58,782 bases of DNA from an uncultured Saprospiraceae bacterium. Its GTDB lineage: Bacteria > Bacteroidota > Bacteroidia > Chitinophagales > Saprospiraceae. The notes beneath the pieces were generated by a model, which did not search any database, had not been told where the DNA came from, and saw only the letters and a list, made by a program, of their open reading frames with translations. Positions 9,130 through 41,830 of this stretch are shown piece by piece (position 1 is the first letter of the stretch; each line of letters begins with the position of its first letter). A program made the position numbers and the translations under genes. The stretch lies in NCBI GenBank assembly GCA_937951615.1, contig CALFBH010000118.1:1-58782 (forward strand), in the 5' to 3' direction.

Positions 9130-11643
9130 CTAATTCTTAACCTTCCCTTTCAAGTTGACATCTGCACGAACCGTGAAATTCATAGGAGCTTCCAGCAGGG
9201 CGGGGCGAACGGTGTAAGCCTTATTGGTCGCATTTTTCAAAATAAAAGAAATTCTTGCCTGTTCCGTAATATTATAAGCTAGGCGCAGGTCGAGTACCAG
9301 ACTACCATTGTCATAATTATCCCTGTAGTCTTTTACGCCGAGTAAGTCTTCACGCTGATCACCTAAAGCATCAGGTAATAGGAATTTCCCCAAGTCATAG
9401 AAATAGGAATCGAGGGCTTCCATTTTGCTATTATATTGCAACGAAACACCAATAGATACTTTCTTTTTAATGGTGGATTCAATATCCATTTTTGCGGTGT
9501 GGCGGAAACGGTATTTCAGTACATTTTGATCGGAAGTAGAATTGGCAACTTTTAAAGAATCGAAATTTTGATATTGTGGATTGATGTAGGTATAACCTGC
9601 AAGCATAGTAGTGGGTAAGCCAAATAATTCTCCTTGCCCCATAAAGCTGATTTCTGCGCCATTGATACGGGTGTCATCAATATTGGTCGATTGAAAACCT
9701 GTGACGGGTTGGGCGGGGTTGCCACCAAAACTAAACTCCATCATATCCTGATACTCCGTTGTGAAAGCAGCAATATCAAGGAAGCCCTGCCAAGAGGAAA
9801 TTTTCAAGCCTTGACGAAGCCCAATTTCTGCCGACCAACCTGTTTCTGAATCTAGAGCGGGATTAGGGCATATAAATAGAATGTTTCCAATGTCTGTAGA
9901 AATATACCGCTCACCAATAGTTGGAAAACGATAACCTTGTCCCCAGGAGGCGCGAAGGTAGGTGTATTCGGCTGGTTGGTAGTTGATGCCCGCGCGGAAT
10001 ACAGGTTTGGCTTCGTTTGATTTAGGGCTTGGATTGGGAATGAACCCACCTGGATGTTCTACCAACTGGCATTGACTGGCAACACTGTCGGGACTGTTGA
10101 TAGTATTGGATTCATAACGAGCACCTAGAGAAACAGACAATTTGTCCATGAATTTTTTATCGACTTGCACATAAGTTCCCAGATTGGAACTGCTGTATTC
10201 GGCATTCCCATATAATTGTGCTTCCGATTGTGTCCCTGTACCTACGATTCCAGCAACAACATTGATACCGCTACCTTCAAATTTTCGTTGGTACTGATAT
10301 TCTCCGTATAATAATTGAGATTTATTGCCCTGATTATTTCCATTATCATTATTAATAAAATAATACCGCGACAATACTTTGTGTCGATTGCCTTTTGTAT
10401 CAAAATAGGTCAGGAAAGGATCAACATTATAACGAAGTATTTTACTGCTCGTTGTTGTACTGAATTTACTCTCAAATCCAAATAATTCCACGAGTGCGCC
10501 TAAATTTCCATCAAGTCTGGCAAAAGTTTCATAAGCACCTTCATAAGGATTTTGCCAGAGGAAGTAAGAGCGACTATTGCCCCGATTTACATTAGCATTT
10601 ATGCCGACCGAAAGGCGGTCTGTGATGCGGTAGCGAGTATTCAGGTTGATGCGTCCTTTGCGGTCGTATTCTTCCTGTCGGAATCCATTTTTATTATAAA
10701 AAGTTCCACCCACAACGAGGTCAAATTTTCCAAATTTCTGGCGATGGGCAAATTGAATCCCATAATCACCCGGTTTAGGCAAGGTATCATTCATCGCCAT
10801 CGTATCGGCTGCAATTCGGTCTTTGCCCCACCATTGACGATTAACACTTCCTGTACAGTCAGCAGTCGTACAGGTGTCTATAGTTGGTGGTGTAAAATAA
10901 TTGGTATTATAAATAGCAATCTTAGTCAACGGTTCGCTAGTCGGATAAGCTGTTTTGAAATTGATAATTCCATTCATGGCAGAAGAGCCGTAGAGGGCAG
11001 AAGCTGCACCTTTGAGGACTTCAATTTGCCCGACATTTTCAATTGGAATATCTCGCCAGTTGGGAAATCCAGAATCTCCGGAAAGGAAAGGCAAATCATC
11101 AACGAGTAGCAATACGCGGCTACCTGCTCCATAAGAATACCCAGAACCACCCCGTATATTGGCTTGTCCGTCAATGACCGTTACACCAGGTACTTTCTCG
11201 ACGACTTGTTCTGTATCTGAGTTGGTGCGATCAATAAGATCTGGTTTGATAACGGACACAGAAACAGTAGACTCTCCGACTTTCACGCCGGATTTATTAG
11301 CCGTTACGACGACCTGATCTAAGAGTTCTGCACTTTCGCTCAATTGAGCATTCAGTTCTCTAACTTCACCTGCACTGAGGGTGATTTCTTCGGTTTGGCT
11401 TTTTAGCCCAATGTATTCAAATTTAACCGAGTATATACCAGGGTCGAGTTGTATTTCATAATTGCCATCATAGTCGGTTGTTGTGCCGGTATCTCCTATA
11501 ATAACATTGGCAAATGGCAGTGTAGAGCCATTGTCTTTACTGATCATTTTTCCTTTTAAAGTCGCTTTTTGTGCCAAAACAGGGAAGCTCAATAGGGCAA
11601 TAAATAGTAAAATTATTGGGGTACGTAAGGCTTGAGTATTCAT
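9130..11643 (-). CDS. TonB-dependent receptor with N-terminal carboxypeptidase-regulatory domain
   Basis: This 837-residue outer-membrane protein has a signal peptide (about 1-24), a carboxypeptidase-D regulatory-like domain (about 27-115: GTTTDYDGNYEIQL, DQVVVTANKSG), a plug domain (about 130-240: VEKVPGVTVIDGQANIRGG, IEVLKGAASALYG) and a large beta-barrel ending in NFTVRADVNLKGKVKN. It would import an unknown ligand using TonB energy. There is no SusD-like partner, so it is not a typical glycan-uptake pair. Expression probably starts at the TACCTTTG box at 11668-11675, which has a TTTG 18 bases upstream. Confidence 0.92.
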   Translation of the reverse strand: MNTQALRTPIILLFIALLSFPVLAQKATLKGKMISKDNGSTLPFANVIIGDTGTTTDYDGNYEIQLDPGIYSVKFEYIGLKSQTEEITLSAGEVRELNAQLSESAELLDQVVVTANKSGVKVGESTVSVSVIKPDLIDRTNSDTEQVVEKVPGVTVIDGQANIRGGSGYSYGAGSRVLLLVDDLPFLSGDSGFPNWRDIPIENVGQIEVLKGAASALYGSSAMNGIINFKTAYPTSEPLTKIAIYNTNYFTPPTIDTCTTADCTGSVNRQWWGKDRIAADTMAMNDTLPKPGDYGIQFAHRQKFGKFDLVVGGTFYNKNGFRQEEYDRKGRINLNTRYRITDRLSVGINANVNRGNSRSYFLWQNPYEGAYETFARLDGNLGALVELFGFESKFSTTTSSKILRYNVDPFLTYFDTKGNRHKVLSRYYFINNDNGNNQGNKSQLLYGEYQYQRKFEGSGINVVAGIVGTGTQSEAQLYGNAEYSSSNLGTYVQVDKKFMDKLSVSLGARYESNTINSPDSVASQCQLVEHPGGFIPNPSPKSNEAKPVFRAGINYQPAEYTYLRASWGQGYRFPTIGERYISTDIGNILFICPNPALDSETGWSAEIGLRQGLKISSWQGFLDIAAFTTEYQDMMEFSFGGNPAQPVTGFQSTNIDDTRINGAEISFMGQGELFGLPTTMLAGYTYINPQYQNFDSLKVANSTSDQNVLKYRFRHTAKMDIESTIKKKVSIGVSLQYNSKMEALDSYFYDLGKFLLPDALGDQREDLLGVKDYRDNYDNGSLVLDLRLAYNITEQARISFILKNATNKAYTVRPALLEAPMNFTVRADVNLKGKVKN

Positions 11644-19014: not shown

Positions 19015-22000
19015 ATGAAATTGACCAAAGCTTTAATACCCGTCTTATTCCTAGTCCTACTAGCAGGAACAACCATGTCATTAAGCCCCGATGCCCCACA
19101 AACTTTCCGCGACATCATCCAGGAATTGCTCGCTGACCTCAAGCAATCCAACGAAGAGCGTCCCGAAGACCGCGTCTATATCCACACCGACAAACCGATG
19201 TACAAGCCCGGCGAAACCATCTGGCTGTCCACTTATGTCCGCGAAGGCGCGAGCCTCACTCCATCCGAAAAATCGGGCATTGTCTATGTCGAACTCATCA
19301 ATCCTAAAGGCAGCGTATCCAAAAAGCTCAACCTCATTGCAGATAATGGCATAGCCTGCGGTGACTTTGATATTGATGAAAATGCAGTAGGCGGGATGTA
19401 TAAAGTAAAAGCCTATACCAACTGGCAAAAAAACGATCCCGACCCAGCTTATTTTATCAAAGAACTACAAGTACAGAAAGTCGTATTGCCCCGACTAAAA
19501 ATGAAACTCGATTTTGAGCGCGAAGCCTACGGCGCAGGCGATGCGGTCAAAGCCGACCTAGACCTCAATACCAATGCCAATCAAGCACTAAGTAATTATG
19601 ATTTCAATTTTGTCGTCAATCTGGAAGGAAGGCAATTACTGAAAGGCAATGGAAAAACCAATGCAGAAGGCAAAGCCAATGTCCAGTTCAATTTACCAAC
19701 AGCCTTAAAAAGCAATGACGGTATTCTGAATGTCATGATACAATATCAAGGCTTGACGGAATCCATCTCTCGTTCTGTGCCGATTGTGCTGAATAAAATT
19801 GACCTCGCATTATATCCCGAAGGTGGCGATTTGGTTACTGGACTAAAAAGCAAAGTTGCCTTTAAAGCCTTGAATGAATTTGGCTTGCCAGCAGATATAG
19901 AAGGCAGGGTAGTCAGCAATACAGGTTTGGAAGTCGCAAAATTAAAATCCTATCATCAAGGCATGGGCGCATTTGAGTTTACGCCATTAAAAGGACAAAG
20001 CTACAAAGTAGAAATCACCAAACCAAAAAACGTAAAGGCAATTCATGACCTGCCCGAAGCCCTAAAACGGGGCTTTGCACTAGAAGTAGTAGAAGTCACC
20101 AAAGACAATATTATCATCAACACCAAATCAACTGAAAACGAAGAATTGTACGTCTTGGCGAATATCCGAGGCGAAAATTATTATGCCAATCCAATCAAAG
20201 CCAATACAGGAGAAAATATACATCGCATTCCAACCACTAAAATGCCCGCAGGCGTAGCCCAACTGACCTTATTCGATAGTAAAGGCATTGCCCGTGCAGA
20301 GCGACTGACTTTCGTCAATAAACACCAGGAACTCAAGGTCAATATTTCCACCAATAAAGAAAAATACCAGCCCCGCGAAAAAGTGGAAATGACCATCGAA
20401 GTCAGCGACCAACGCGGCGTCCCCATGCCCGCCGATCTGTCCCTTGCAGTAGCTGATGACCAACTCCTGACCTTCGCCGACGATAAATCTTCCAACATCC
20501 TCTCTTGGTTGCTCATGGAAGCTGATCTTGCCGGAGAAGTAGAAGAACCGAATTTCTATTTTGATGCAGCAGAAGAAAAAGCCGAACTCGCACTAGATTA
20601 CTTGCTGATGACTTCTGGCTGGCGCAGATTTACCTGGGAACAGGTACGTAATGATTTGCCCATAGCAGGTTATCCCAATGAGGCGAATGTAATCAGTGGA
20701 GTAGTTTTAGGCAAAGAAAATGAGCCGCTTCAAAATGCTATTATAAAAATAGAAGGCAAAGATATTCAGCAAATAACGGATAAAGATGGAGTATTTACAT
20801 TTAAAAATATAGCACTCTACGAGCCGGTAACGCTTGTCGCAAATACAAAAGAATACGACACAAAGCGACTAGTGACAAACTACGGAACAGAGGTGACTTT
20901 TCGTCCCGCAATACAGGGTGTTGTAACAGATAAAAACACAGGAGAAGGAATTCCTTTTGCTAATGTGTATATGCTAGGAACAGAGACCGGAACGCTAACA
21001 GATATTGACGGTAAATACGAAATTGTTTTGCCAGAAAGTCTTCCTGCTAACCCAAAGCTTCAAGTGAGCTATATAGGCTATATGAATGTGACCGTTCCTG
21101 TAGGAGGAAGCAGTGAAATCAATATAGAATTGGATGATGCTGGCATGTTATTGGACGAGGTAGTTGTAGCAGGTGCACGCCCAGGAAAAGGAGGTGTCAG
21201 GGAAAAAGCAAGGGGGCAAAGAGAGAGGAAAAGACCGCAGCTTGCAATGGCGGCATCACCACGACCGCCTGTAATCGAAGAAGTCCCAGAAGAAATGATA
21301 GAAATGGAAGAAGATATGGTTATGGATGATGCAGAAAACTTGCCCGTCCGTAATGTCGACGCGCTGGCAGCCCAGGCAGCTGGTGTAAAAGCAGATAAAG
21401 ATGCGGACGGCGTACAATTCAGAGGCGCAAGAGAAGGTGAGCAGGTCGTTTTTGTAGATGGTGTACGTGTAAAAGAGGAAGCTGAAAAAGCACTAAAACA
21501 AGAAGCTAAACGAAAATTAGTAGATGCGCGAATGGACAATGCAGAAGCAAAAGAACAAGCAAAAGTAGCAGGTAAAAGAGCAGAAGCAGAACGTTTTGCC
21601 ATGAAGCGTGAACGTGCGAAAGTACAGGATATTAGAATGATAGAAGATGAAGCTAATTTTGGCAATGTCAGAAAACTAGCTCCACCAAAAATCCTCTACT
21701 ACCGCCCACGCGAATTTGCCGCGCCAAAGTACGATGCACAGCCCACAAAACAAGCCCAACGCACAGACTTCCGCAGCACCATCTACTGGAACGGGCATGT
21801 AAAAGTAGACAAAACAGGAAAAGCAAAACTCGAATTTTACACCTCCGATGCCATTACATCATTCAATATTACTGCCGAAGGCATTGCGCAGGATGGAACA
21901 GTCGGTAGAGGCACGCATAAATTTTATTCTCAATTACCTTTCAGTATGAATGCCAAAATCCCGGTAGAAGTCGTGACAGGCGATGTACTGAAATTGCCTT

Positions 22001-23832
22001 TGACTTTCGTCAATAACACAGATGGCACCTTGGATGGCGTATTGGATTTTACTATTCCAAAAGGCTTTAAACCAAAAGAAAGACTGCCCGAAACACTGAC
22101 CCTTGCACCCAAGTTCACCAAGACCGATTATATAGAATTTCTAGTCACAGAGGCACAACCCAAAGCAAATTTTGGACTACAGTTTTTTAGCAATGGCTTT
22201 GAAGATAATGTGATGCAGGAAATCAGCTCAGTCTCCAAAGGCTTCCCAGCCATGCTGTCCTACTCCAATCAAGCACTCAACGAAACCTACGAAATGGACA
22301 TCAATGATGTAGTGGACGGCTCACTCGAAGTCAGCCTCACCGCTTATCCCGATTTGGCGGGCGAATTGATGTCTGGCTTGGAATCTATGTTGCGCGAGCC
22401 ACATGGTTGTTTTGAGCAAACCTCCTCTGCGACCTATCCAAATATTCTGGTTTTACAATACATGAATGAAACCGACCAAATCAACCCCGAATTAGCGAAA
22501 AAAGCAAAAGAACTCATCGCAAGAGGCTATAAACGCCTGACAGGTTACGAATCGCAAAGCGGCGGATTTGAGTGGTTTGGCAAAGACCCTGGACACGAAG
22601 GACTGACGGCTTATGGTTTGATGGAATTTACAGAAATGAAAAAAGTATGGGACGGCGTGGACACAGAAATGATCGACCGCACCGCCGACTGGCTGATGGA
22701 AAGACGCGATGGCAATGGCTTGTTCAAACGCAACCCCCGTGCTTTACATAGTTTTGGCTTGACCACTGATGAAAACATGAGTGCCTACATCACGTATGGA
22801 CTGACGGAAGCTGGTTATGAGGATTTGCAAAAAGAAGTAGATGCCGCTTACGCCAATGCTAAAACAGCTAAAAATCCTTACTTGATGGGGCTTGCCGCCA
22901 ATATTTTGTATAATAAAAAAGACAAAAAACGAGGCGATGAGATCTTAGCAAAATTAATGAAAATGCAGGCCGAAAAAGGTGCATGGAAACACGGCGAAAA
23001 AGACAAATCAGGCCCAGGTTCAGGCGGAAATGCCCTGAAAATAGAAACGGCTTCTCTGACGTTAATGGCGCTGCTCAAGCAAGACAAACCAGATGCAACC
23101 AGCATCAAAAAAGTAGCCGATTTTGTCCGCAACTCGCGTGGAGGTTATGGTGGTTTTGGAAATACGAACAGCACAGTTCTGGCTTTACGTTCCTTAATTG
23201 CTTATACGAAATATGCCAAGCAAACCGAAGAAGACGGCGAATTGGAATTATATGTCAATAACAAAAAAGTCGCCACGAAAAAATATGAAGCTGGAACAAA
23301 AGGCGAAATCGTCATGGACGACCTAGCGCAATATTTCAAAGATGGCAAGCAAAATGTAAAAGTCAAATTTGCAGGAACAAAAGCGGCATTGCCTTATACC
23401 TTAGCGGCAAATTGGAAGACCACTTTGCCCCATTCCGACGCAGCATGTGTGATCGACATAGCAACCAAATTGGCGAAAAACAGTGCAAAAGTAGGGGAGA
23501 CCCTCCGCCTCACCACCACCCTCAAAAACAAAACCGCAGACGGGCAGCCCATGACCCTCGCCATCGTCGGCTTACCAGCCGGACTGACTGCACAGCCCTG
23601 GCAGTTGAAAGAATTATTAGACAAAGAAATTGTAGATTTCTATGAAGTGATTGGCAATAATGTAGTTTTCTATTATCGTCAAATGGCACCTTCGGAAAGC
23701 AAAACCATTCACCTCGACCTGAAAGCTGAAATGCCTGGTGAATTTGATGCACCTGCTTCTTCGGGTTATTTGTATTATACCAATGAGTTTAAAGACTGGG
23801 ATGTTGTGGAGACGGTGACAATTGTGCAGTAA
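19015..23832 (+). CDS. Alpha-2-macroglobulin family protein with embedded TonB-receptor-type domains (A2M-1)
   Basis: This 1605-residue exported protein starts at ATG 19015 with a signal peptide (LTKALIPVLFLVLLAG). Domain order by eye: MG2-type domain (about 50-150, VYIHTDKPMYKPGETIW); further macroglobulin strands; two carboxypeptidase-regulatory-like domains (about 560-625 and 630-712, GTETGTLTDIDGKYEI); a partial plug (about 775-818, FRGAREGEQVVFVDGVRV); a Lys/Ala/Glu-rich helix (about 819-872); the A2M bait-following domain (about 915-962); and the thioester domain with GCFEQ (Cys1132, Gln1135). A2M proteins trap proteases or attach to nucleophiles through the thioester. The plug has no barrel, so nutrient uptake is unlikely. 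The next gene is a larger paralogue. A longer start at 18979 lacks the signal-first layout. Confidence 0.85.
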   Translation: MKLTKALIPVLFLVLLAGTTMSLSPDAPQTFRDIIQELLADLKQSNEERPEDRVYIHTDKPMYKPGETIWLSTYVREGASLTPSEKSGIVYVELINPKGSVSKKLNLIADNGIACGDFDIDENAVGGMYKVKAYTNWQKNDPDPAYFIKELQVQKVVLPRLKMKLDFEREAYGAGDAVKADLDLNTNANQALSNYDFNFVVNLEGRQLLKGNGKTNAEGKANVQFNLPTALKSNDGILNVMIQYQGLTESISRSVPIVLNKIDLALYPEGGDLVTGLKSKVAFKALNEFGLPADIEGRVVSNTGLEVAKLKSYHQGMGAFEFTPLKGQSYKVEITKPKNVKAIHDLPEALKRGFALEVVEVTKDNIIINTKSTENEELYVLANIRGENYYANPIKANTGENIHRIPTTKMPAGVAQLTLFDSKGIARAERLTFVNKHQELKVNISTNKEKYQPREKVEMTIEVSDQRGVPMPADLSLAVADDQLLTFADDKSSNILSWLLMEADLAGEVEEPNFYFDAAEEKAELALDYLLMTSGWRRFTWEQVRNDLPIAGYPNEANVISGVVLGKENEPLQNAIIKIEGKDIQQITDKDGVFTFKNIALYEPVTLVANTKEYDTKRLVTNYGTEVTFRPAIQGVVTDKNTGEGIPFANVYMLGTETGTLTDIDGKYEIVLPESLPANPKLQVSYIGYMNVTVPVGGSSEINIELDDAGMLLDEVVVAGARPGKGGVREKARGQRERKRPQLAMAASPRPPVIEEVPEEMIEMEEDMVMDDAENLPVRNVDALAAQAAGVKADKDADGVQFRGAREGEQVVFVDGVRVKEEAEKALKQEAKRKLVDARMDNAEAKEQAKVAGKRAEAERFAMKRERAKVQDIRMIEDEANFGNVRKLAPPKILYYRPREFAAPKYDAQPTKQAQRTDFRSTIYWNGHVKVDKTGKAKLEFYTSDAITSFNITAEGIAQDGTVGRGTHKFYSQLPFSMNAKIPVEVVTGDVLKLPLTFVNNTDGTLDGVLDFTIPKGFKPKERLPETLTLAPKFTKTDYIEFLVTEAQPKANFGLQFFSNGFEDNVMQEISSVSKGFPAMLSYSNQALNETYEMDINDVVDGSLEVSLTAYPDLAGELMSGLESMLREPHGCFEQTSSATYPNILVLQYMNETDQINPELAKKAKELIARGYKRLTGYESQSGGFEWFGKDPGHEGLTAYGLMEFTEMKKVWDGVDTEMIDRTADWLMERRDGNGLFKRNPRALHSFGLTTDENMSAYITYGLTEAGYEDLQKEVDAAYANAKTAKNPYLMGLAANILYNKKDKKRGDEILAKLMKMQAEKGAWKHGEKDKSGPGSGGNALKIETASLTLMALLKQDKPDATSIKKVADFVRNSRGGYGGFGNTNSTVLALRSLIAYTKYAKQTEEDGELELYVNNKKVATKKYEAGTKGEIVMDDLAQYFKDGKQNVKVKFAGTKAALPYTLAANWKTTLPHSDAACVIDIATKLAKNSAKVGETLRLTTTLKNKTADGQPMTLAIVGLPAGLTAQPWQLKELLDKEIVDFYEVIGNNVVFYYRQMAPSESKTIHLDLKAEMPGEFDAPASSGYLYYTNEFKDWDVVETVTIVQ

Positions 23833-24137
23833 CTGACGGTTTCGTAAACTTGCGCAAGGCCTCGTGGGAAGCGAGTTTGCTAAACCTTTCTATCTAAAAC
23901 ATAGAAGGTTTAGTAAACTCGCCACTCAAAACCCGCGCACAAGTTTACCAAACCGTCAAATTCCAAATTCCGAAACACTTCTGAAAAAATTACCCATGCC
24001 GTATTTGTGCGGGACGGGCTTCCTATTTTTCTCGCAAAGACGCAAAGGCGCAGAGTTTCTTTCCCTTAGCGTCTTTGCCGCCTTAGCGAGAACATTCTTC
24101 TTTGCTGAATGCTTTCTGACTCCTTTAAATAAAAAAA
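23833..24137 (+). repeat. Gap with two nested inverted-repeat elements
   Basis: About 23835-23960 is a nested inverted repeat: GACGGTTTCGTAAACTTG pairs with CAAGTTTACCAAACCGTC, and inside it GCGAGTTTGCTAAACCTT pairs with AAGGTTTAGTAAACTCGC. About 24032-24092 is another, CTCGCAAAGACGC with GCGTCTTTGCCGCCTTAGCGAG; its word recurs at 41729-41752. No gene is seen, and ORFs through the hairpins are rejected. The hairpins may limit read-through from A2M-1 into A2M-2. Confidence 0.75.
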
Positions 24138-27100
24138 ATGAATCTACCCACAGAAATAAAACATGTACTCACTATATTATTACTCCTGTTTTTCTGCTGC
24201 CAAGCAAAGGGGCAAAAACTAATAGACAGTCGCCAAACGAGCGAGTACACCTACATCTATAAAATTACAGAGAAGGAGGCAGAAGAAATTTACAGCAATA
24301 CTATTGAGGGAGTCGACAGCACATTTTTTCATACACGAGTAGATTCATTCCCAACAGACGAGGAATATAATAGACGTTTATCACAAGGGCATTATATCAA
24401 AACCTATGCAGACCAAAACAAGCAGAAAATTGCCATTACAACTATTCAAGATTTCAATGTTTTTATTTTAAATAATAATACAGATTTGAGTATTCAGGTC
24501 TATGATTTAAATGGAAAAATCATTCAGAATGCCGACCTGAAAGTGAAAAAGAAAAAACTGCGCTTCAATAAAAACACGCAATGCTATATTGATAAAAAAT
24601 CGAACAAAAAAGGTTTACTTAGCATTACGCACGATGGTTTTACAGCCTATTACGACTTGTCCAGAGATCGTAATAATTCATGCATTAAAAGAGGCTACCG
24701 AAAAATTGCTTACCAGACACCGCTGAAATACGTCTGGATGCCCATAAAATTTGTCGCGCTCATTCCGGTGGATGGTGTAAAGTCGATTGCTGATGGATAT
24801 TCAAGAGGCACAATTCGCAGAACGAAAAACTTCTTTGTAAAATCCTATGAAAAAATTGCCTGTATTTTTGATGATTATCACTGCAATGATTATAGATTTG
24901 GAGAGCGCCATACAGGCTACATGGTCTTCAATAAACCCAAATACCTGCCAGGCGATACTGTGAAGTTCAAAGCTTTTTTGGTAACAAAAAAGGGAAAACC
25001 TATTAATAAAGAAGTCAGCGTATCCATACAGACAAACAGGGAAAATGTCGAACTCACACAGCTCCAACCTTATCGGAAAGGAGGCTATGCTTATGAGTTT
25101 TTCCTACATGATTCTCTGGAATTAAAACTGGATAGATATTACAGTATCTCCCTCAAATTAAATGGCAAAAAAGAATACATCAGGAGTGCTTTTAAATACG
25201 AAGACTACGAATTGACAAAGACACAACTTGCGGTCAGATTGGACGATGAAAAACAATTTAGAAATCAGAAAAGAAAATTATTCATCAAGGGAACAGACGA
25301 AAATGATTTGAATATTCTGGATGGCAGGATTGAGGTTTTAGTAATGCCCAAAACAATACATAAGTACTTTGACAATCCTGTATTTGTGCCAGATACCCTG
25401 CTTTTTGTAAAACAGCAACTTAAACCTAGCAGTGAAACAGAGGTGCTACTGCCTGATTCTTTATTCCCCAAAATCAATTTTGATTATAGTGTAAATGTAA
25501 AACTACTCACTTCCGACAATGAAGTCTTATCCGAAAAAAAGACGGTAAATTATTTCTATCAGTTAAAAACTTTTGATGCCAGGGTACTAACAGATTCTAT
25601 TCGATTTTTTTATAAAGAAAACGCAGTAGCAAAGCCTGAAAAAGTCACGATAAGTGCTAAGGATAATTTCGGAAATAGCACGCCAGTTTATAGTGGGTAT
25701 ACACCTTGTACACTTGCGCTGAATCCTTACTATTCCCACTATGTCATAGAAGCGGATAGCCTGTCGAAAAGCATTAGGATGAGCAAAGAACCTGATTTGC
25801 TGAGCTGCTATGCGGATAGAACGCTCGATTCAGTTTTTGTACAGGTGGATAATCCGCGTAATATTCCTTTTAGTTACAACATTTACAGAGGGAATAAAGA
25901 AAAATATGCAGGCTACGCTGATTCGCTCAATCTACAACAAAAAACAAAGTCAAAGCAAAATTATTTTGTGTCGATAAGGTATTTATGGGCAGGTAAAATA
26001 GTGGAAAAAAGCTATAATATTCCTTTAGTAGATAAGCAACTAAATGTATCCATTACAGAACCTAAACTAGTATATCCGGGGCAAAAATCGAAGATTGAAG
26101 TATTGGTTACCAATGCAAATGGTAAACCTGTTGAAAATGTGGATGTTACAGCTTATGGATTGACAAAGAAGTTTAATTATGCGACACCAAATTTACCTTA
26201 TTTTGGCAAAGACAGAAAAGGCAAATCATTAATCAATAATTTCAGTCTCAAAAACACTAAACCCTACAGTGAGGACTTGGATCTGAATTACGATGCCTGG
26301 AGCATACTGGCAGGGCTGGATTCTATTGAATATTATACATTCATTTACCCGAAAGACAGCATCTACCGTTTTGAATATGAAAGTGCGGATACGCTGACGC
26401 AGTTTGCTCCCTTTGTCGTTTCCGATGGAGCGATTCAGCCCATTCATGTTGTTTATGTGGACAATAAACCAGTATATTTTAGTTGGTCGACACATAATCA
26501 ACCTTACTCCTTTCCGATTGACAGTGGTTTCCATCAAATCAATTTGCGGACAAGTTATGCAGATATCACGATTGACAGCATGTATTTTCAGCCAGGCAAA
26601 AAATTGATTTTTAGTTTGAATGAGGATGTTCAATTGAAGAATGTCAGAATAAGAGATGTGAAGCCTGAACTTAGCCAGCAGGAACAAAACTTATTATACA
26701 AATATATCTTTCCTTACCGACAAAAAAATTGGGAACAATATGCTTATCTGGAACAGGATGGACATATTCAGGTACTGAAGCCTCATGCAAGAGCAAAAAA
26801 ACGGGGGTATTATTTTGCAGGGCCAATAGTGGGTGATTTAAGTTTTAATCTTACAGACAGTGTCTCCACCAACTTTCAGCACGAGCATTTCTTTGAATAT
26901 GATTTCGCGCCCGAATTGCTGAAAATGCGTAGCGTGGATAGACGAAAATATCCTAAGGAACTCAATCTATACAAACCTGTAACAGTCTTAGCAGATGAGT
27001 ATATTTCCAAAGCAGCTTTCCTTCAAAAATGGGAGGATAATCTTGCCGCAAGACAATTAAGACTGGCAAGACATTTTTCACCAACAGTAACACCAAATAA

Positions 27101-30100
27101 TCGTGGTCGCCTTCAAGTTTATTTTACAGGACTACAAAAAATGAGCGAAAGACCACTGCATATCTTATTATTCAGTCAGGATAAAGATGAATTGCTTGGT
27201 ATTTATCAGGGGCGCAGGTCTTTTTCAGGTCTTTTAAATAAAGGAACTTACAAATTCGTTTTTTTCTATACAGACGAAAGCTATCACGTATTAAATTCCA
27301 TTCAGGTAAAACCTCATGGACTCAATCATTACGAATACGAACAGCCCAAAACACGGATGAATGATAAGTACAGCATTTACATAAAAAACCTAATAGAAAA
27401 AACACTTTTTGGCGACAGGTCACTGTCTTATAAGCCCAAAAAAGAAACAGAAAAACCTATAAAGAAGTACGGGCCACACTATGATGGTCATATACTAGAA
27501 GGTTATGTGCGGGATGAAGAAGGAGAACCTTTACCTTTTGCGAATGTATTTGTAGAAGGTACGACGATTGGAACAGTAACAGATATTGATGGAAAGTATG
27601 CCTTAAAAGTACCCTGGGGTGCTGATGTTGTGGTCTTTTCTTATACAGGATATGCGGATCAATCTATTTCGGCAAGAAGCAGGAGTGTAGTTGATGTAAA
27701 TCTTAGTCAAGGGGAGCTGTTGGATGAGGTTGTCGTTGTAGGTTATGGTGTAACAAGGAGTAAAGCATCCTATTCCTATGCTGTTCAAACTGCTTCATCT
27801 GAAGAAATCCGAAGGCTTCCGACACGTAACGTAAATGCACTGGCTGGGGCTGTAGCCGGAGTATCCCAGGATAAAGAAGGCAAAAACATTAGTTTTCGTG
27901 GAGCGCGCGAAGGCGACCAGATTGTTTATGTAGACGGTGTAAAAGTACAGGGACTCGCTGTTTCTGCCAGCGGACTTGAAGTGGAAATGAGAGGTGCGTC
28001 ATCCATTAAGTTTGACAAGCAAGCTCTCTATATAGTAAACGGGCAAGTATATCTAGGCAATATTTCCGATCTCGATCCGAATACTATACAAGAAGTCAAA
28101 ACACTACAGGGAAGTGAAGCAACTGCCCTATACGGAGCAAAAGCTGCAAATGGAGTAGTTGTCATTACAACACGAGCGGGAACTTTTGAGCCAAATAAAG
28201 GAGCTGACTTTGACGATGCTTTCCTGCAAGCTGCTTCGCAGTCCAGTTCAATCAGAGAAAATTTTTCCGATTATGCCTTCTGGCAACCCACACTGCGGAC
28301 CAATAAGGAAGGAAAAGCCACTTTTGAACTTACTTTTCCCGATGATGTCACCAATTGGAAAACCCATTATCTGGCGATGAATGGCAAAAAACAATCAGGA
28401 CAAACTTCTGGTTTTGTCAAGTCATACAAACCGCTGATGGCACAACTGGCAGTACCCCGATTTCTGATTGAAGCAGATACAAGCTATGCTATTGGCAAAG
28501 TATTGAACTATGGGCAGGATTCGATAAAAGTCAGTACGCAATTTGAAATCAATGAGCAATCTTTGTATGACAATACGGAATATTGTACGCACTCCATTAT
28601 CGACACCTTGCTCATTATAGCTCAGACCGATTCGCTCTCTGTCAAATACGTCGTCGAAGACGAGAAAGGCTACTTTGATGGTGAACGTCGGGATATTCCC
28701 GTTTATCCACTCGGGCTGGAAGAAACCAAAGGACAATTCTATGTGCTGGACAAGGATACCACTTTAAACCTGACTTTCGATGCCCAACTCGGCAAAGTAA
28801 ATCTATACGCCAGAGCAGATGTACTGGATGTTATTGAAGATGAAATTAACCATTTAAGACGATACAAATACTTCTGCAATGAGCAAATTGCGTCAAAACT
28901 AAAAGGACTGATTGCGGCAAAAAAGATTGCACAATACAAAGGAGAAGAGTATAAGTACGACAAGGATATAAAAAAACTCATCCGTTTATTAAAGAAAAAT
29001 CAAAAAGCAAATGGTTTGTGGGGCTGGTGGAAAGATTCCAGGCAAAGCGAATGGATCAGTCTGCATGTTCTTGAAGCTATAACACAGGTAGAAAAATTAG
29101 GCTATACAACCAACATCAACAAAAGTCAGATTATCAAAAAACTAGTATGGGAACTTGAAGACAACCGCGATTTTTACAGACGCGCCAGAATACTCAAAAC
29201 GCTGCATCTCCTCGGGGCGCAGATAGATGAGCAGCGATATATGTCAATGTTGGAAGAAACCAAAGACAGCACATTAAATAAACAGCTTCAAATTTTTGAA
29301 TTAAGGGCTTTGTATAAAATGGAGAATGATTTGGATACCTTAGCTTCATTTATACAAACAACTTTATTCGGAAATATATATTTTGCGGAGCAAGACGATA
29401 AAAAAACGAGCCTCCTATTCAATGATGTACAAAACACCTTGCTAGCCTATAAAATACTAAGAGCAGACTCCACAAAACATGAGGAAACGCTGGCTAAAAT
29501 GCGCAATTATTTTCTAGAAAAAAGAAAAAGAGGATATTGGCGAAACACCTACGAATCGGCACAAATCATCGAAACAATCTTACCAGATCTACTTGGCGAT
29601 AAAACTGAATTAAGAAAACCAACTTTAAGCCTTACAGGTGATGTGAATCAAGTCGTTTCTGAATTCCCTTTTGAAATAGAAGTACAAGCAGACGAACAAA
29701 TCAGCATATCCAAATCAGGCGACTTTCCCGTTTATTTTACCAGCTATCAGCGATACCAAAACAAAAAACCAAAAGCTAAAAAAGACGATTTTGAAATTAC
29801 TGCAAAATTTGATAAAACCACCAATTCAATACTGACAGCAGGAGAGGAGACAAAGCTGATTGTAAACATTACAGTAAACAAAGATGCAGAATATGTGATG
29901 ATTAATATCCCGATACCAGGCGGCTGTTCTTATGCCAGCAAGAAAAATTATTACAAAAATGAATCACATCGAGAATACTTTAAAAACGAAACAGCCATTT
30001 TTTGCGAATTTTTACCTAAAGGGAAATATACTTATACCATAGATTTAATTCCAAGATATTCAGGAAACTACACACTGAATCCTGCCAAAATAGAACTCAT

Positions 30101-30155
30101 GTATTTTCCGACTTTTAGCGGAAATAATGAGATGAAAAAAGTGAAGGTGAAATAG
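24138..30155 (+). CDS. Giant alpha-2-macroglobulin family protein with a full SusC-type regulatory domain and plug (A2M-2)
   Basis: This 2005-residue exported protein has a signal peptide (about 1-26), a charged N-terminal region, an MG2-type domain (about 250-350, FNKPKYLPGDTVKFKAF), several macroglobulin-like segments, a carboxypeptidase-regulatory domain (about 1113-1205, GTTIGTVTDIDGKYAL, LLDEVVVVGYG as in SusC), a complete plug (about 1211-1350, FRGAREGDQIVYVDGVKV, LQGSEATALYG, NGVVVITT), an A2M domain (about 1377-1420) and a helical thioester domain with CNEQ (Cys1580, Gln1583). The shared plug words show it is a paralogue of A2M-1. No beta-barrel is present. It lies 153 bases before the CHAT gene on the same strand. 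I infer an outer-membrane or periplasmic protease-trap or adhesive role; it is not proven. Confidence 0.85.
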   Translation: MNLPTEIKHVLTILLLLFFCCQAKGQKLIDSRQTSEYTYIYKITEKEAEEIYSNTIEGVDSTFFHTRVDSFPTDEEYNRRLSQGHYIKTYADQNKQKIAITTIQDFNVFILNNNTDLSIQVYDLNGKIIQNADLKVKKKKLRFNKNTQCYIDKKSNKKGLLSITHDGFTAYYDLSRDRNNSCIKRGYRKIAYQTPLKYVWMPIKFVALIPVDGVKSIADGYSRGTIRRTKNFFVKSYEKIACIFDDYHCNDYRFGERHTGYMVFNKPKYLPGDTVKFKAFLVTKKGKPINKEVSVSIQTNRENVELTQLQPYRKGGYAYEFFLHDSLELKLDRYYSISLKLNGKKEYIRSAFKYEDYELTKTQLAVRLDDEKQFRNQKRKLFIKGTDENDLNILDGRIEVLVMPKTIHKYFDNPVFVPDTLLFVKQQLKPSSETEVLLPDSLFPKINFDYSVNVKLLTSDNEVLSEKKTVNYFYQLKTFDARVLTDSIRFFYKENAVAKPEKVTISAKDNFGNSTPVYSGYTPCTLALNPYYSHYVIEADSLSKSIRMSKEPDLLSCYADRTLDSVFVQVDNPRNIPFSYNIYRGNKEKYAGYADSLNLQQKTKSKQNYFVSIRYLWAGKIVEKSYNIPLVDKQLNVSITEPKLVYPGQKSKIEVLVTNANGKPVENVDVTAYGLTKKFNYATPNLPYFGKDRKGKSLINNFSLKNTKPYSEDLDLNYDAWSILAGLDSIEYYTFIYPKDSIYRFEYESADTLTQFAPFVVSDGAIQPIHVVYVDNKPVYFSWSTHNQPYSFPIDSGFHQINLRTSYADITIDSMYFQPGKKLIFSLNEDVQLKNVRIRDVKPELSQQEQNLLYKYIFPYRQKNWEQYAYLEQDGHIQVLKPHARAKKRGYYFAGPIVGDLSFNLTDSVSTNFQHEHFFEYDFAPELLKMRSVDRRKYPKELNLYKPVTVLADEYISKAAFLQKWEDNLAARQLRLARHFSPTVTPNNRGRLQVYFTGLQKMSERPLHILLFSQDKDELLGIYQGRRSFSGLLNKGTYKFVFFYTDESYHVLNSIQVKPHGLNHYEYEQPKTRMNDKYSIYIKNLIEKTLFGDRSLSYKPKKETEKPIKKYGPHYDGHILEGYVRDEEGEPLPFANVFVEGTTIGTVTDIDGKYALKVPWGADVVVFSYTGYADQSISARSRSVVDVNLSQGELLDEVVVVGYGVTRSKASYSYAVQTASSEEIRRLPTRNVNALAGAVAGVSQDKEGKNISFRGAREGDQIVYVDGVKVQGLAVSASGLEVEMRGASSIKFDKQALYIVNGQVYLGNISDLDPNTIQEVKTLQGSEATALYGAKAANGVVVITTRAGTFEPNKGADFDDAFLQAASQSSSIRENFSDYAFWQPTLRTNKEGKATFELTFPDDVTNWKTHYLAMNGKKQSGQTSGFVKSYKPLMAQLAVPRFLIEADTSYAIGKVLNYGQDSIKVSTQFEINEQSLYDNTEYCTHSIIDTLLIIAQTDSLSVKYVVEDEKGYFDGERRDIPVYPLGLEETKGQFYVLDKDTTLNLTFDAQLGKVNLYARADVLDVIEDEINHLRRYKYFCNEQIASKLKGLIAAKKIAQYKGEEYKYDKDIKKLIRLLKKNQKANGLWGWWKDSRQSEWISLHVLEAITQVEKLGYTTNINKSQIIKKLVWELEDNRDFYRRARILKTLHLLGAQIDEQRYMSMLEETKDSTLNKQLQIFELRALYKMENDLDTLASFIQTTLFGNIYFAEQDDKKTSLLFNDVQNTLLAYKILRADSTKHEETLAKMRNYFLEKRKRGYWRNTYESAQIIETILPDLLGDKTELRKPTLSLTGDVNQVVSEFPFEIEVQADEQISISKSGDFPVYFTSYQRYQNKKPKAKKDDFEITAKFDKTTNSILTAGEETKLIVNITVNKDAEYVMINIPIPGGCSYASKKNYYKNESHREYFKNETAIFCEFLPKGKYTYTIDLIPRYSGNYTLNPAKIELMYFPTFSGNNEMKKVKVK

Positions 30156-30158
30156 AAA

Positions 30159-30212
30159 TTAGCCACGAATGCACGAATGACATTCGTCCTTAATTCGTGC
30201 ATTCGTGGCTAA
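30159..30212 (+). repeat. Hairpin repeat of the CACGAATGCACGAAT family, copy 1
   Basis: Arms TTAGCCACGAATGCACGAAT (30159-30178) and ATTCGTGCATTCGTGGCTAA (30193-30212) are exact complements. The same element occurs at 41624-41677 with a different loop. It begins 3 bases after the A2M-2 stop. Confidence 0.85.
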
Positions 30213-30308
30213 AAATAAAAGTCCAAAAAAATTACAGATCAAATCAGGAAGTTATTTTTTTACCATTCCTAAAAGCCTTAAATTGCAAGCCAAACATTGT
30301 AATTTAAG

Positions 30309-33308
30309 ATGCTTATTAAACATTTCATTCCACTCTTTTTTGCCTTTTTATTTTTTGGAAATACCGCTTTGGCACAGGCGGATAAAAACACCGATGAACA
30401 ACTCAATACACTGCTCGCCAAAGCTGGTGCGCACCTCTACACGAAGATGGACAGTGCCTTGTTTTATCTCAATCAAATCACCAAAATCACGGCGGAACAT
30501 GAGAACTGGAACAGCTACCTGAGTGCCTGTTTGTGGAAGACGAATTGTGCCGGGCATCATTATCGTTTTGATTCGATGTATGTCTATTTGTCGGATGCCG
30601 AGGAGATGATAAAGCGGCAAAATATCAACTTGGACACGATGGAATATGGTGGCGAAACACGACTGGGATTGGACACCAACTGGGGAAATTATTATTATAA
30701 AACTGGAAATTTTGACAAGGCTTCTACTTATTTCAAAGCCATTATTGAAACCTTGAGCGAACGGGATACGCTGGGCAAATACGAATACCAAACCATCATT
30801 TCCAATTATTTGTATCTGGGGAATATTGAGAAGGCAAGGAGCAATTATAAAGCTGCGCTTGACCACTTTTTATATTGTGAACAAGTGGATAAGGAGATGC
30901 GCGATAAATTTGGAAAAGGCTATGCGATGAGCCTGATTTATTCGTCGCTGGCAGGGACTTATAAGGCATTGGGCGATTATGATAATGCTCGCATACAACA
31001 TCAAAAAGCCATCGGACTGAGCAATGAACAATTGCGCAGCAAAGAAAAATCACTGGCAAAACTGAAAAACGGACTGATTACACATTATAATCAGTTTGCC
31101 CGACTGTATATTGAGGAAGGCGATGTGGAGAATGCCCGCGATCTATTGAATACTTCCTTGAAATATCATATTGAAAATGATCCTTTTTATCCGAAAACCA
31201 ATATGCTGATGGGCAGGACTTATGCCTTGGAAGGCAAAGCAGAAAAGGCGATGGTTTATATGAAGGATGCCCTGGAACAAACCCGTAAAAGATATGGCGC
31301 ACAGCATTATCGGGTAGCGGAAGATTTGCTTCAGATTGGAGATGTTTTTTATAAGGAGAAAGATTACGGGAAAGCATTGATACATTATCATGATGCGCTC
31401 GCGAGCATAACAGAAAATTACGATACAGCTCGTTTCGCAAAAGCGATGGGTTTAAACCCATCGCTTTTGCGAAACGAGCGTATTTATAGCTTACCGCAAA
31501 TAGAAAATACGATTCATAAAAAGACTGTATTACTGGCACTCAGTTCGAAGGCGAATGCGTTGTTTGAGCTATATCAGTCGGATAAAAATATGCAGAATTT
31601 GGAAGCTGCGGAAGGGCATATCCAATTGGCAGTACAAGTGATGGACGAGATGCGATTAGAATACCATTCAGAAGAAGCCCGACAGTTTTTGGTCGAGCAA
31701 AGTTATCCTGTTTTTGAAAAAGCAATTGAAATTAATCGACAATTATACCAGCAAAAATCGGATAAAAATTATTTGGCGAAAGCCTTTGAATATGCGGAAA
31801 AAAGCAAGGGTTTGTTGTTACTGGATGCGCTGAAAAGCACCGCTGCGCGGCAGTTTGCCAATATTCCGGAAGCCACGCTAGAAGCCGAACGATTATTGCG
31901 TTTCAATATGAATCACCTGCGGGAAAAAATTGGAAAACTCAAAAAGGAAACCAAAAACGAAGCGCGACTCCGAAAATTGCAGAATGACTTGTTTGAGCAA
32001 ACAAATCAGTACGAAATATTTATTGCCAAATTGGAAAAGATGCATCCTGATTATTATCAGGCGAAATACGATAAACAAACGATGAGTATCGATGATATTC
32101 GACGTGATGTTCTGGATGAAAATATGGCTTTTGTTGAGTATTTCATGGGCGATAGTCAGGTCTATGCTTTTTTGATTACAAAAGATGATATTCAACTGGA
32201 AAGCAGCCCGAAAGTAGCAGAAATACAAACTGCAATAGCTGGTTTGAGAGAAGCGATTGTTTTGAAAAAAGATGACCAAGCCTATCTAAGCAATGCTCGT
32301 CTATTGTATCGGCATTTATTAGAAAATATACTGGACACAAAAACGAATAATATCAAGCGACTCATCATCGTACCAGATGGTGGACTTGCTTATATTCCCT
32401 TTGATATTTTATTGGAAAAAGAACTGTCAGAGGAGCAGATTGCAACTGTCAATTATCGGCGTGATGCGATGCCTTATCTGCTGAATCGTTATGCGATTAG
32501 TTATGCTTATTCTGGGGCAGTGTTGCGGCAAAACCTGAATACAAAGCCGAACCGTCGTCCTTCCGTGGCTTTTGGAGGTTTCGCGCCTTCCTTCGATCAT
32601 TTGCCTGACTTGGGGCTGGCCATGCGTTCTTGTGCTTCGGGGCGTTTATCGCCTTTAAAGCATAATCAAAAAGAAGTGGAAAATATTGCGAATACTATGG
32701 GAGGAAAGGCTTTTGTAGGCGAATCGGCAGGCAAGGCGGATTTTGAAGAAAAGTCGAGTAAATGTCGCATTTTGCACCTAGCCACTCATGCTTGCGCGGA
32801 TGATGATGCAAGTCTGAGCCGGGTGTATTTTGGAGAAGATGATTATATGAGTGTGCTGGATTTATATGGCTTAGAATTGAATGCTGAAATGGTGGTGTTG
32901 AGTGCTTGCGAAACGGGTGTCGGGACGATGAAAAGGGGAGAGGGCGTGATGAGTCTGGCGCGTGCTTTCGCTTATACTGGTGTGCCGGGGATTACCATGA
33001 GTTTATGGTCGGTCGATGATGAAGCAGCGTCGAAAATCATGGTCTATTATTATCAGCATTTGAAGGCTGGGAAGCCTAAAGACGAGGCCCTTCATGCTGC
33101 CAAACTGGATTTTCTGGATAATGTAGAAATAACACGCAATCAGCATCCGTTTTATTGGGCGGCTTTTGTGCATATTGGCGATGCGGAGGCTTTGTCGGGC
33201 GGCTGGAATGGCTGGTGGTGGCTGATTGGTTTGTTTGTTGTGGTGTTGTTTATTCTTGCTCTTTCAATAACTTCACCACTGCCTCAATCCACTGAGGATG
33301 GTCATTAA
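30309..33308 (+). CDS. Exported TPR-CHAT domain protein (caspase-like)
   Basis: This 999-residue protein has a signal peptide (about 1-22), TPR-like helical repeats over about 130-460 (GNYYYKTGNFDKASTYFKAI, LGDYDNARIQHQKAIGLSNE), a helical linker, and a CHAT peptidase domain (about 660-950) with the dyad His827 (LHLATHACADD) and Cys867 (VLSACETGVGTM). A transmembrane segment lies near the C-terminus (WWWLIGLFVVVLFILALS), so the CHAT domain should face the periplasm or surface. CHAT enzymes are caspase/separase relatives, often acting as death or immune effectors. It is the last of three co-oriented genes after the two A2M proteins. A perfect palindrome is inserted in frame at residues 374-391, and the 3' end overlaps hemH by 59 bases. 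Confidence 0.88.
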   Translation: MLIKHFIPLFFAFLFFGNTALAQADKNTDEQLNTLLAKAGAHLYTKMDSALFYLNQITKITAEHENWNSYLSACLWKTNCAGHHYRFDSMYVYLSDAEEMIKRQNINLDTMEYGGETRLGLDTNWGNYYYKTGNFDKASTYFKAIIETLSERDTLGKYEYQTIISNYLYLGNIEKARSNYKAALDHFLYCEQVDKEMRDKFGKGYAMSLIYSSLAGTYKALGDYDNARIQHQKAIGLSNEQLRSKEKSLAKLKNGLITHYNQFARLYIEEGDVENARDLLNTSLKYHIENDPFYPKTNMLMGRTYALEGKAEKAMVYMKDALEQTRKRYGAQHYRVAEDLLQIGDVFYKEKDYGKALIHYHDALASITENYDTARFAKAMGLNPSLLRNERIYSLPQIENTIHKKTVLLALSSKANALFELYQSDKNMQNLEAAEGHIQLAVQVMDEMRLEYHSEEARQFLVEQSYPVFEKAIEINRQLYQQKSDKNYLAKAFEYAEKSKGLLLLDALKSTAARQFANIPEATLEAERLLRFNMNHLREKIGKLKKETKNEARLRKLQNDLFEQTNQYEIFIAKLEKMHPDYYQAKYDKQTMSIDDIRRDVLDENMAFVEYFMGDSQVYAFLITKDDIQLESSPKVAEIQTAIAGLREAIVLKKDDQAYLSNARLLYRHLLENILDTKTNNIKRLIIVPDGGLAYIPFDILLEKELSEEQIATVNYRRDAMPYLLNRYAISYAYSGAVLRQNLNTKPNRRPSVAFGGFAPSFDHLPDLGLAMRSCASGRLSPLKHNQKEVENIANTMGGKAFVGESAGKADFEEKSSKCRILHLATHACADDDASLSRVYFGEDDYMSVLDLYGLELNAEMVVLSACETGVGTMKRGEGVMSLARAFAYTGVPGITMSLWSVDDEAASKIMVYYYQHLKAGKPKDEALHAAKLDFLDNVEITRNQHPFYWAAFVHIGDAEALSGGWNGWWWLIGLFVVVLFILALSITSPLPQSTEDGH
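31428..31479 (+). repeat. Perfect 52-nt palindrome embedded in the CHAT gene
   Basis: The halves 31428-31453 and 31454-31479 are exact reverse complements, with GGGTTTAAACCC at the centre. It is read in frame as ARFAKAMGLNPSLLRNE plus R, in the linker after the TPR repeats. The word TTTTGCGAAAC is shared with the intergenic mosaic at 35500-35643, so this looks like a member of the intergenic hairpin family that has been accepted inside a protein gene. Confidence 0.9.
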
Positions 33309-41541: not shown

Positions 41542-41830
41542 AATTTATGGTTTTGCCCCACAATATATATAATATTCTTTCATTATAAAAGTGTAAAATT
41601 TAACAAATTTTGAAAAATAGAAGTTCGCCACGAATGCACGAATCCTCCACAAATTTAATTCGTGCATTCGTGGCTAAAAATGAACACGCCGTGTTTTGAA
41701 TTTGTATTTGACATTTGAGTTTGTTTTCTCGCAAAGTCGCTAAGACGCAAAGTTGAATTGGAGAGAATATCGAATAGTAAAGTGGAAAGAAAAACATCAA
41801 CACCACAACACATCAACACGACAACACATT
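41542..41830 (-). repeat. Gap with hairpin repeat and CGCAAAG word
   Basis: 41624-41677 is the second copy of the CACGAATGCACGAAT hairpin family. 41697-41727 repeats TTTGAATTTGTATTTGACAT, followed by CTCGCAAAGTCGCTAAGACG (about 41729-41748), a relative of the element at 24032-24092. CAACACCACAACACATCAAC lies near 41800. No gene is supported. Confidence 0.75.

Follow-up and report, generated by a model that had tools for sequence, protein, structure and literature searches.

Background

Bacterial alpha-2-macroglobulins (A2Ms) have been described as periplasmic protease traps, and no TonB-system modules are known in ECAM/YfhM of E. coli or in the A2M of Salmonella. Here we describe two neighbouring A2M genes (genes 1 and 2) of an uncultured Saprospiraceae bacterium, in which pieces of the TonB-dependent import machinery sit where an A2M carries its protease bait. 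They lie in a stretch of 58,782 nucleotides (contig CALFBH010000118.1, assembly GCA_937951615.1; the whole stretch is called the window below). ECAM/YfhM and the Salmonella protein are likewise bacterial thioester A2Ms, but match the window genes only distantly in sequence. Human A2M and complement C3, C4 and C5 share the overall fold and order of the window proteins, whose insert lies at the bait/C3a position: where the human proteins have a bait peptide or an anaphylatoxin, the window proteins have a carboxypeptidase-regulatory-like domain (CarbD), a TonB box and a plug.

The ECAM report (PMC4498604) describes an inner-membrane lipoprotein with ten macroglobulin (MG) domains, unlike the window proteins; activation of ECAM follows once its disordered bait has been cut and so untethered. 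SusC/RagA transporters, on the other hand, present the same order of modules as the window proteins (a CarbD resembling the SusC N-terminal extension (NTE), a (L/V)DEVVV box and a plug), while the window proteins lack the barrel and have the modules embedded in an A2M. According to PMC7782687, VDEVVV is the TonB box of the SusC protein Bt1763, and its loss leads to a levan growth defect like that caused by SusD loss. Finally, VreA of the PUMA3 system of P. aeruginosa combines a barrel-less TonB-receptor-type part with an extracytoplasmic-function (ECF) sigma factor (PMC2729926), as do the ECF-linked relatives described below and not the window genes; it differs from them in its small size, its FecA-type signalling domain and its lack of an A2M. 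No A2M with a plug, a TonB C-terminal domain (TonB_C) or ECF linkage was found in open-access titles and abstracts, a weak negative given that subscription papers and preprints were outside the scope.

Ton-system modules occupy the bait position of two A2M proteins

In both window proteins the CarbD/TonB-box/plug modules occupy the position where A2Ms carry the protease bait. The elements of genes 1 and 2 are as follows.

19015..23832, + strand: gene 1, thioester A2M, 1605 aa from its ATG, with a signal-peptide-like N-terminus by eye
20689..20901, + strand: gene 1, first CarbD-like domain, residues ~559-629, confident in the AlphaFold model
20911..21168, + strand: gene 1, CarbopepD_reg_2 domain resembling the SusC NTE, residues 633-718 (Pfam 5.9e-26)
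21151..21168, + strand: gene 1, TonB-box motif LDEVVV, residues 713-718, recognized by motif
21325..21477, + strand: gene 1, plug fragment, residues 771-821, below the cut-off of Pfam Plug
21778..22035, + strand: gene 1, Pfam A2M domain, immediately following the bait position
22408..22419, + strand: gene 1, thioester motif CFEQ, residues 1132-1135
24138..30155, + strand: gene 2, second A2M, 2005 aa
27498..27737, + strand: gene 2, CarbopepD_reg_2 domain, residues 1121-1200 (Pfam 7.1e-18)
27720..27737, + strand: gene 2, TonB box LDEVVV, residues 1195-1200
27765..28157, + strand: gene 2, SusC/RagA-type plug, residues 1210-1340 (Pfam 1.8e-12)
28275..28541, + strand: gene 2, Pfam A2M domain (2.5e-17)
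28875..28886, + strand: gene 2, thioester-type motif CNEQ, residues 1580-1583

Over the Pfam cut-offs, gene 1 matches MG2, A2M, TED_complement (7.5e-36), A2M_recep and CarbopepD_reg_2, and gene 2 matches MG2, A2M, bMG10, CarbopepD_reg_2 and Plug. Both proteins have MG2 and then A2M domains in order and the A2M fold, as thioester A2Ms do (a GTG 36 bases upstream of the ATG of gene 1 offers an alternative start, giving 1617 aa). The CxEQ thioester motif that an earlier note had reported in both is indeed present: CFEQ of gene 1 recurs in all rows but L050 of a 14-row alignment (A1), and C-x-E-Q is kept in 10/10 gene-2-family proteins. TED_complement found no match in gene 2 in the Pfam scan, and we infer the thioester part of gene 2 from its CNEQ motif, the A2M and bMG10 matches and conservation.

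The earlier note had further placed a CarbD and a plug, without a barrel, between the macroglobulin and thioester parts of both proteins. The barrel is absent as claimed: Pfam gives no barrel domain in either protein at E up to 0.1. Of the hallmarks of a SusC transporter, the 22-strand barrel is missing and the TonB box motif LDEVVV is present in both. The placement of CarbD and plug holds in full for gene 2, whose plug is complete (Pfam Plug positions 3-107 of 107) and whose residues 1124-1353 match RagA (6sli_B, 1.9e-22). For gene 1 it holds by half: the CarbD is there, while the plug is a sub-threshold fragment (16.0 bits versus a cut-off of 23.9) covering positions 15-69 of 107. Pfam counts two CarbD stretches in gene 1, and AlphaFold is confident of the CarbopepD_reg_2 domain up to about residue 704. 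The gene 1 family profile aligns to the human A2M precursor from residue 724 onward.

Neither protein has a lipobox by eye or a type IX sorting domain in the Pfam scan, which leaves the surface location suggested before without support; by default, both would therefore be periplasmic. Nor do they resemble the lipid-anchored ECAM type in domain content, with no match to bMG3, bMG5 or bMG6 in Pfam, unlike their paralogue L040.

Within the gene 2 plug (about 27855-27980) lies an extra stretch of ~27 residues, RGARE...VDGV, that resembles the gene 1 plug fragment. It is absent from the gene 2 orthologues L052, L053 and L054, and L053 probably adjoins the orthologue of gene 1. A recent copying event from one gene to the other was considered and rejected: at the DNA level the inserts share only a 78-base stretch of 71% identity, within the CarbD.

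The TonB box stands out as the most conserved part of the gene 2 insert

The box reads L.EVVV in 10/10 gene-2-family proteins, and five of its six positions are invariant, versus 4/76 in the CarbD, 0/82 in the linker and 1/64 in the plug core (outside the insert, 41/861 positions are invariant in the N-terminal part and 82/640 in the C-terminal part). In L153, the plug tail is gone and the box is kept. Because the box is the best-conserved element of the insert, the suggestion that the plug could dock to, or block, an outer-membrane partner gains support on its docking side, with a Ton-system component as the candidate partner.

For the gene 1 family, a less strict version of the box pattern was found in 21 of the 29 module-bearing bait segments versus 11 of the 96 module-less ones, a comparison that leaves out five repeat-bearing segments. 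Shuffled sequences matched the pattern in a mean of 1.6 of 29 cases, and in 6 at the highest.

Modules recur and vary among Bacteroidota relatives

NTE-like CarbD, plug or TonB C-terminal domains were present in 29 of 130 non-duplicate bait segments of the gene 1 family. As judged from sequence, what appears to be a trap design with a TonB-box motif and import-machinery pieces in its trigger region occurs in many Bacteroidota relatives, and the modules vary between relatives on the tree (a quick one with known long branches, so its counts of changes are rough). Because neither profile search scored more than 2 or 3 candidates in any one genome, the family counts are lower bounds. Of 576 relatives found, 80 were kept as named relatives; 41 named segments without modules were checked by local profiles alone. 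A search with full-length gene 2 was swamped by transporter plugs, and its C-terminal part was used as the query instead.

Macroglobulin proteins of ~780-840 aa without a thioester domain (TED) were also observed: L017 and L018 carry a plug, and L020 a plug-like tail missed by Pfam. They resemble the window A2Ms in joining a macroglobulin part to a plug or plug-like tail at the same place; two of them, L018 and L020, stop right after the MG7-like part. Since L017, L018 and L020 have this plug or tail but no thioester domain, we argue that the role of the plug may be docking or sensing, and not covalent capture alone.

When A2M plugs were compared by BLAST with 51 transporter open reading frames (ORFs), those of L145, L146, L147, L203 and L232 were slightly closer to a transporter than to any other A2M plug, and others were not, in a sample too small to decide on plug origins. 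The plug of L171 is a local profile match which Pfam did not confirm. In L039, L046, L048, L049 and L050 the bait position is filled by repeats of the type IPAxYETVT..V, with no Pfam family over cut-off. A comparison with a viral structure library returned Ig-like and other proteins at TM-scores of ~0.1 and was uninformative.

Some relatives are linked to ECF sigma genes

A subset of the relatives lies directly behind an ECF sigma gene. Sigma70_r2 and r4_2 domains were found in the next upstream ORF in all five cases tested (L039, from the same genome as the window, and L046, L047, L048 and L050), with sigma-to-A2M gaps ranging from an overlap to 429 bases. L215, L220 and L226 share this layout, which makes eight distinct loci (L222, a duplicate of L046, is not counted). 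The N-termini of these A2Ms carry a W..M(E/D)..L segment, detected by pattern at 7/8 loci and by eye in L220 (WEKMDALL), and then a hydrophobic stretch, which is found in each. A similar N-terminus occurs in a non-A2M protein behind an ECF sigma gene at L061. The segment is probably an anti-sigma segment. As for the bait position, L047, L215, L220 and L226 have Ton-system modules there, and the other four have repeats. A profile scan of the neighbourhood found no sigma gene at the window A2M genes.

Divergently oriented ECF sigma genes were seen within ~120 bases of the A2M gene at L089, L092, L093, L094, L097, L100, L163 and L186; at L100 and L163, the sigma gene has an anti-sigma-like gene with Cys residues behind it. 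The ECF-linked A2M of L220 (L220:6338-12112) is split over two ORFs of 1596 and 310 aa.

A docking model and its alternatives

We tentatively propose, at a probability of roughly 0.4, that these proteins are periplasmic A2M traps whose bait module docks to TonB or to TonB-dependent transporters, and that the anti-sigma versions report to their ECF factor. What the sequences show is the architecture, the bait position, the conservation of the TonB box, the recurrence of the modules and the linkage to sigma genes; residence in the periplasm, TonB binding, protease trapping and signalling are inferred. In such a device, the TonB-engaging module at the bait position (SusC-NTE-like CarbD, TonB box, and plug or plug remnant) would hold the trap at TonB or at working TonB-dependent transporters, a possible entry point of foreign proteases into the periplasm. 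Cleavage in the neighbouring disordered stretch would then spring the cage and expose the thioester, as in the E. coli A2M. ECF-linked members, one of them in the same genome, would probably report cleavage or TonB engagement to transcription, because they combine an anti-sigma-like segment, a hydrophobic helix and an upstream ECF sigma gene.

If so, outer-membrane import and complement-like proteins would be tied together by the presence of both Ton-interface partners at the bait of a single A2M family, along with the invariant TonB box in the gene 2 family. Members behind ECF sigma genes would form a novel kind of envelope sensor, and the barrel-less plug proteins of Bacteroidota would gain a concrete, testable role.

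Several observations weigh against the docking model: i) gene 1 residues 710-886, including the plug fragment, are predicted to be disordered (predicted local distance difference test, pLDDT, <50; AlphaFold); ii) the less strict box pattern misses L042 and L043, close relatives of gene 1 in which the box has drifted; iii) modules and repeats are both lacking from 55 of 76 family segments; iv) with 46 plugs in the genome, some chance capture of plugs is expected; v) the ~830-aa TED-less relatives imply that the job of the plug does not need covalent trapping; vi) in the AlphaFold model of L209 (7-row alignment), the CarbD and TonB_C are ordered and the box region has pLDDT <50, with no pairing of TonB box and TonB_C, as in an intramolecular latch, seen within the protein.

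The abundance of plugs, together with the degenerate plug of gene 1, would suit neutral domain capture, in which the bait loop tolerates inserts and abundant CTD and plug pieces land there without function. TonB_C, however, is not abundant (8 domains in the genome, one of them inside an A2M bait), any further Pfam family that scores above its cut-off within the inserts simply overlaps the CarbD domain, and the box persists in 10/10 gene-2-family proteins, even in L153 with its plug tail lost. We therefore consider neutral capture unlikely, though it is the rival that survives best.

The conservation of the box could also reflect a TonB-operated trigger, in which the force of TonB on the bait box unfolds the bait and opens the cage, instead of or after cleavage. 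PMC9022066 reports that TonB binds TonB boxes and can pass on force, and that the bond between TonB and box holds under the force at which half a plug unfolds; according to PMC4498604, ECAM needs its bait untethered to become active. Yet there is no sign of coupling, gene 1 has no folded plug in its model, and relatives bearing TonB_C would pull on different partners, which makes this trigger improbable. Just as improbable is a Ton-wired macroglobulin system, where TonB would seize the box and so work the bait region of the complement-like protein as a switch, relatives with both box and TonB_C would clip themselves shut, and membrane-bound members would signal the opening of the cage to an ECF sigma factor; if true, one device would read both protease attack and Ton-system traffic.

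That both Ton-interface partners (plug/TonB box and TonB_C) occur at the bait position and vary between relatives would suit an integrated decoy, its modules mimicking the targets of Ton-attacking proteases or toxins so that the attacker springs the trap. No protease is known to cut these domains specifically, and the TED-less relatives keep the plug; the decoy thus ranks lower again. More doubtful still is an anaphylatoxin-like messenger, a CarbD/TonB-box/plug piece freed or exposed by cleavage that would compete for binding to TonB or transporters and act as a signal or uptake brake: the insert does sit at the position of the releasable C3a of C3 and the disordered stretch suits cleavage, but such a piece has no known receptor.

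The CHAT gene and the layout of the locus

The genome (7.0 Mb) has six A2M matches, and the nearest named relatives are Saprospiraceae. Besides the A2M genes, the locus contains the following elements.

23871..23922, no strand: inverted repeat located between gene 1 and gene 2
30159..30212, no strand: copy of a dispersed palindrome, located between gene 2 and gene 3
30309..33308, + strand: gene 3, tetratricopeptide-repeat (TPR)-CHAT protein, 999 aa, in which a signal peptide and, at the C-terminus, a hydrophobic segment are seen by eye

The ORFs bear out three co-oriented genes of the reported positions and sizes, all on the + strand, and Pfam finds TPRs and CHAT (1.2e-59) in gene 3 over cut-off, as had been claimed; its motifs are HLATHA and SACETG. 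A three-gene operon is weakened as an idea by the inverted repeats in both intergenic gaps. The 21-base core of the palindrome before gene 3 has 26 exact copies genome-wide versus 0 for a control pattern, and the same palindrome also occurs in the window at 41657-41677.

Orthologues of gene 1 were identified in G001 (L008), G003 (L041) and G005 (L042), and in another genus in G009 (L043); those of gene 2 are L053 (G001), L052 (G003) and L054 (G005). In G003 and G005 the two orthologues lie apart, flanked by other genes. In G001, the gene 1 contig stops 226 bases past the gene and the gene 2 contig starts at the gene, and the two contig ends share an exact 43-base overlap that places gene 1 ahead of gene 2; the fetched gene 1/gene 2 contig pairs of G003 and G005 had no such overlap. 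The pair is thus probably adjacent in G001, and so kept in one of three congeners.

The CHAT gene, by comparison, did not recur beside A2M genes at the loci covered. The survey proposed in the earlier note, which suggested that CHAT and A2M form one protease-trap/effector system, found the neighbourhood in the window only, among 78 gene-1-family and 10 gene-2-family loci. In the stretches fetched, the CHAT profile matched at 0/77 other gene-1-family, 0/9 other gene-2-family and 0/80 named loci, and recovered 6/6 control CHAT genes; this absence is partial, since contig ends truncate many of the loci (L008 covers 5.6 kb). No relative of gene 1 or 2 adjoins the best matches to gene 3 in G001, G003 and G009 (L056, L057 and L058), L057 being only 5.5 kb long. 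With 15 CHAT and six A2M matches in the genome, one chance adjacency is unsurprising. A joint system is therefore very improbable, despite adjacency and co-orientation here and the presence, on the G001 gene 2 contig, of two CHAT ORFs of a different type (the nearer one ending ~8 kb away, opposite strand), given the missing recurrence, the A2M-free surroundings of the best gene 3 matches and the dispersed palindrome that precedes gene 3; we judge the CHAT gene to be a chance neighbour outside the A2M device.

Two more plug domains lie in the window, at 10966-11274 (- strand) and 43514-43750 (- strand), in ORFs of transporter size that are TonB-dependent receptors by this measure.
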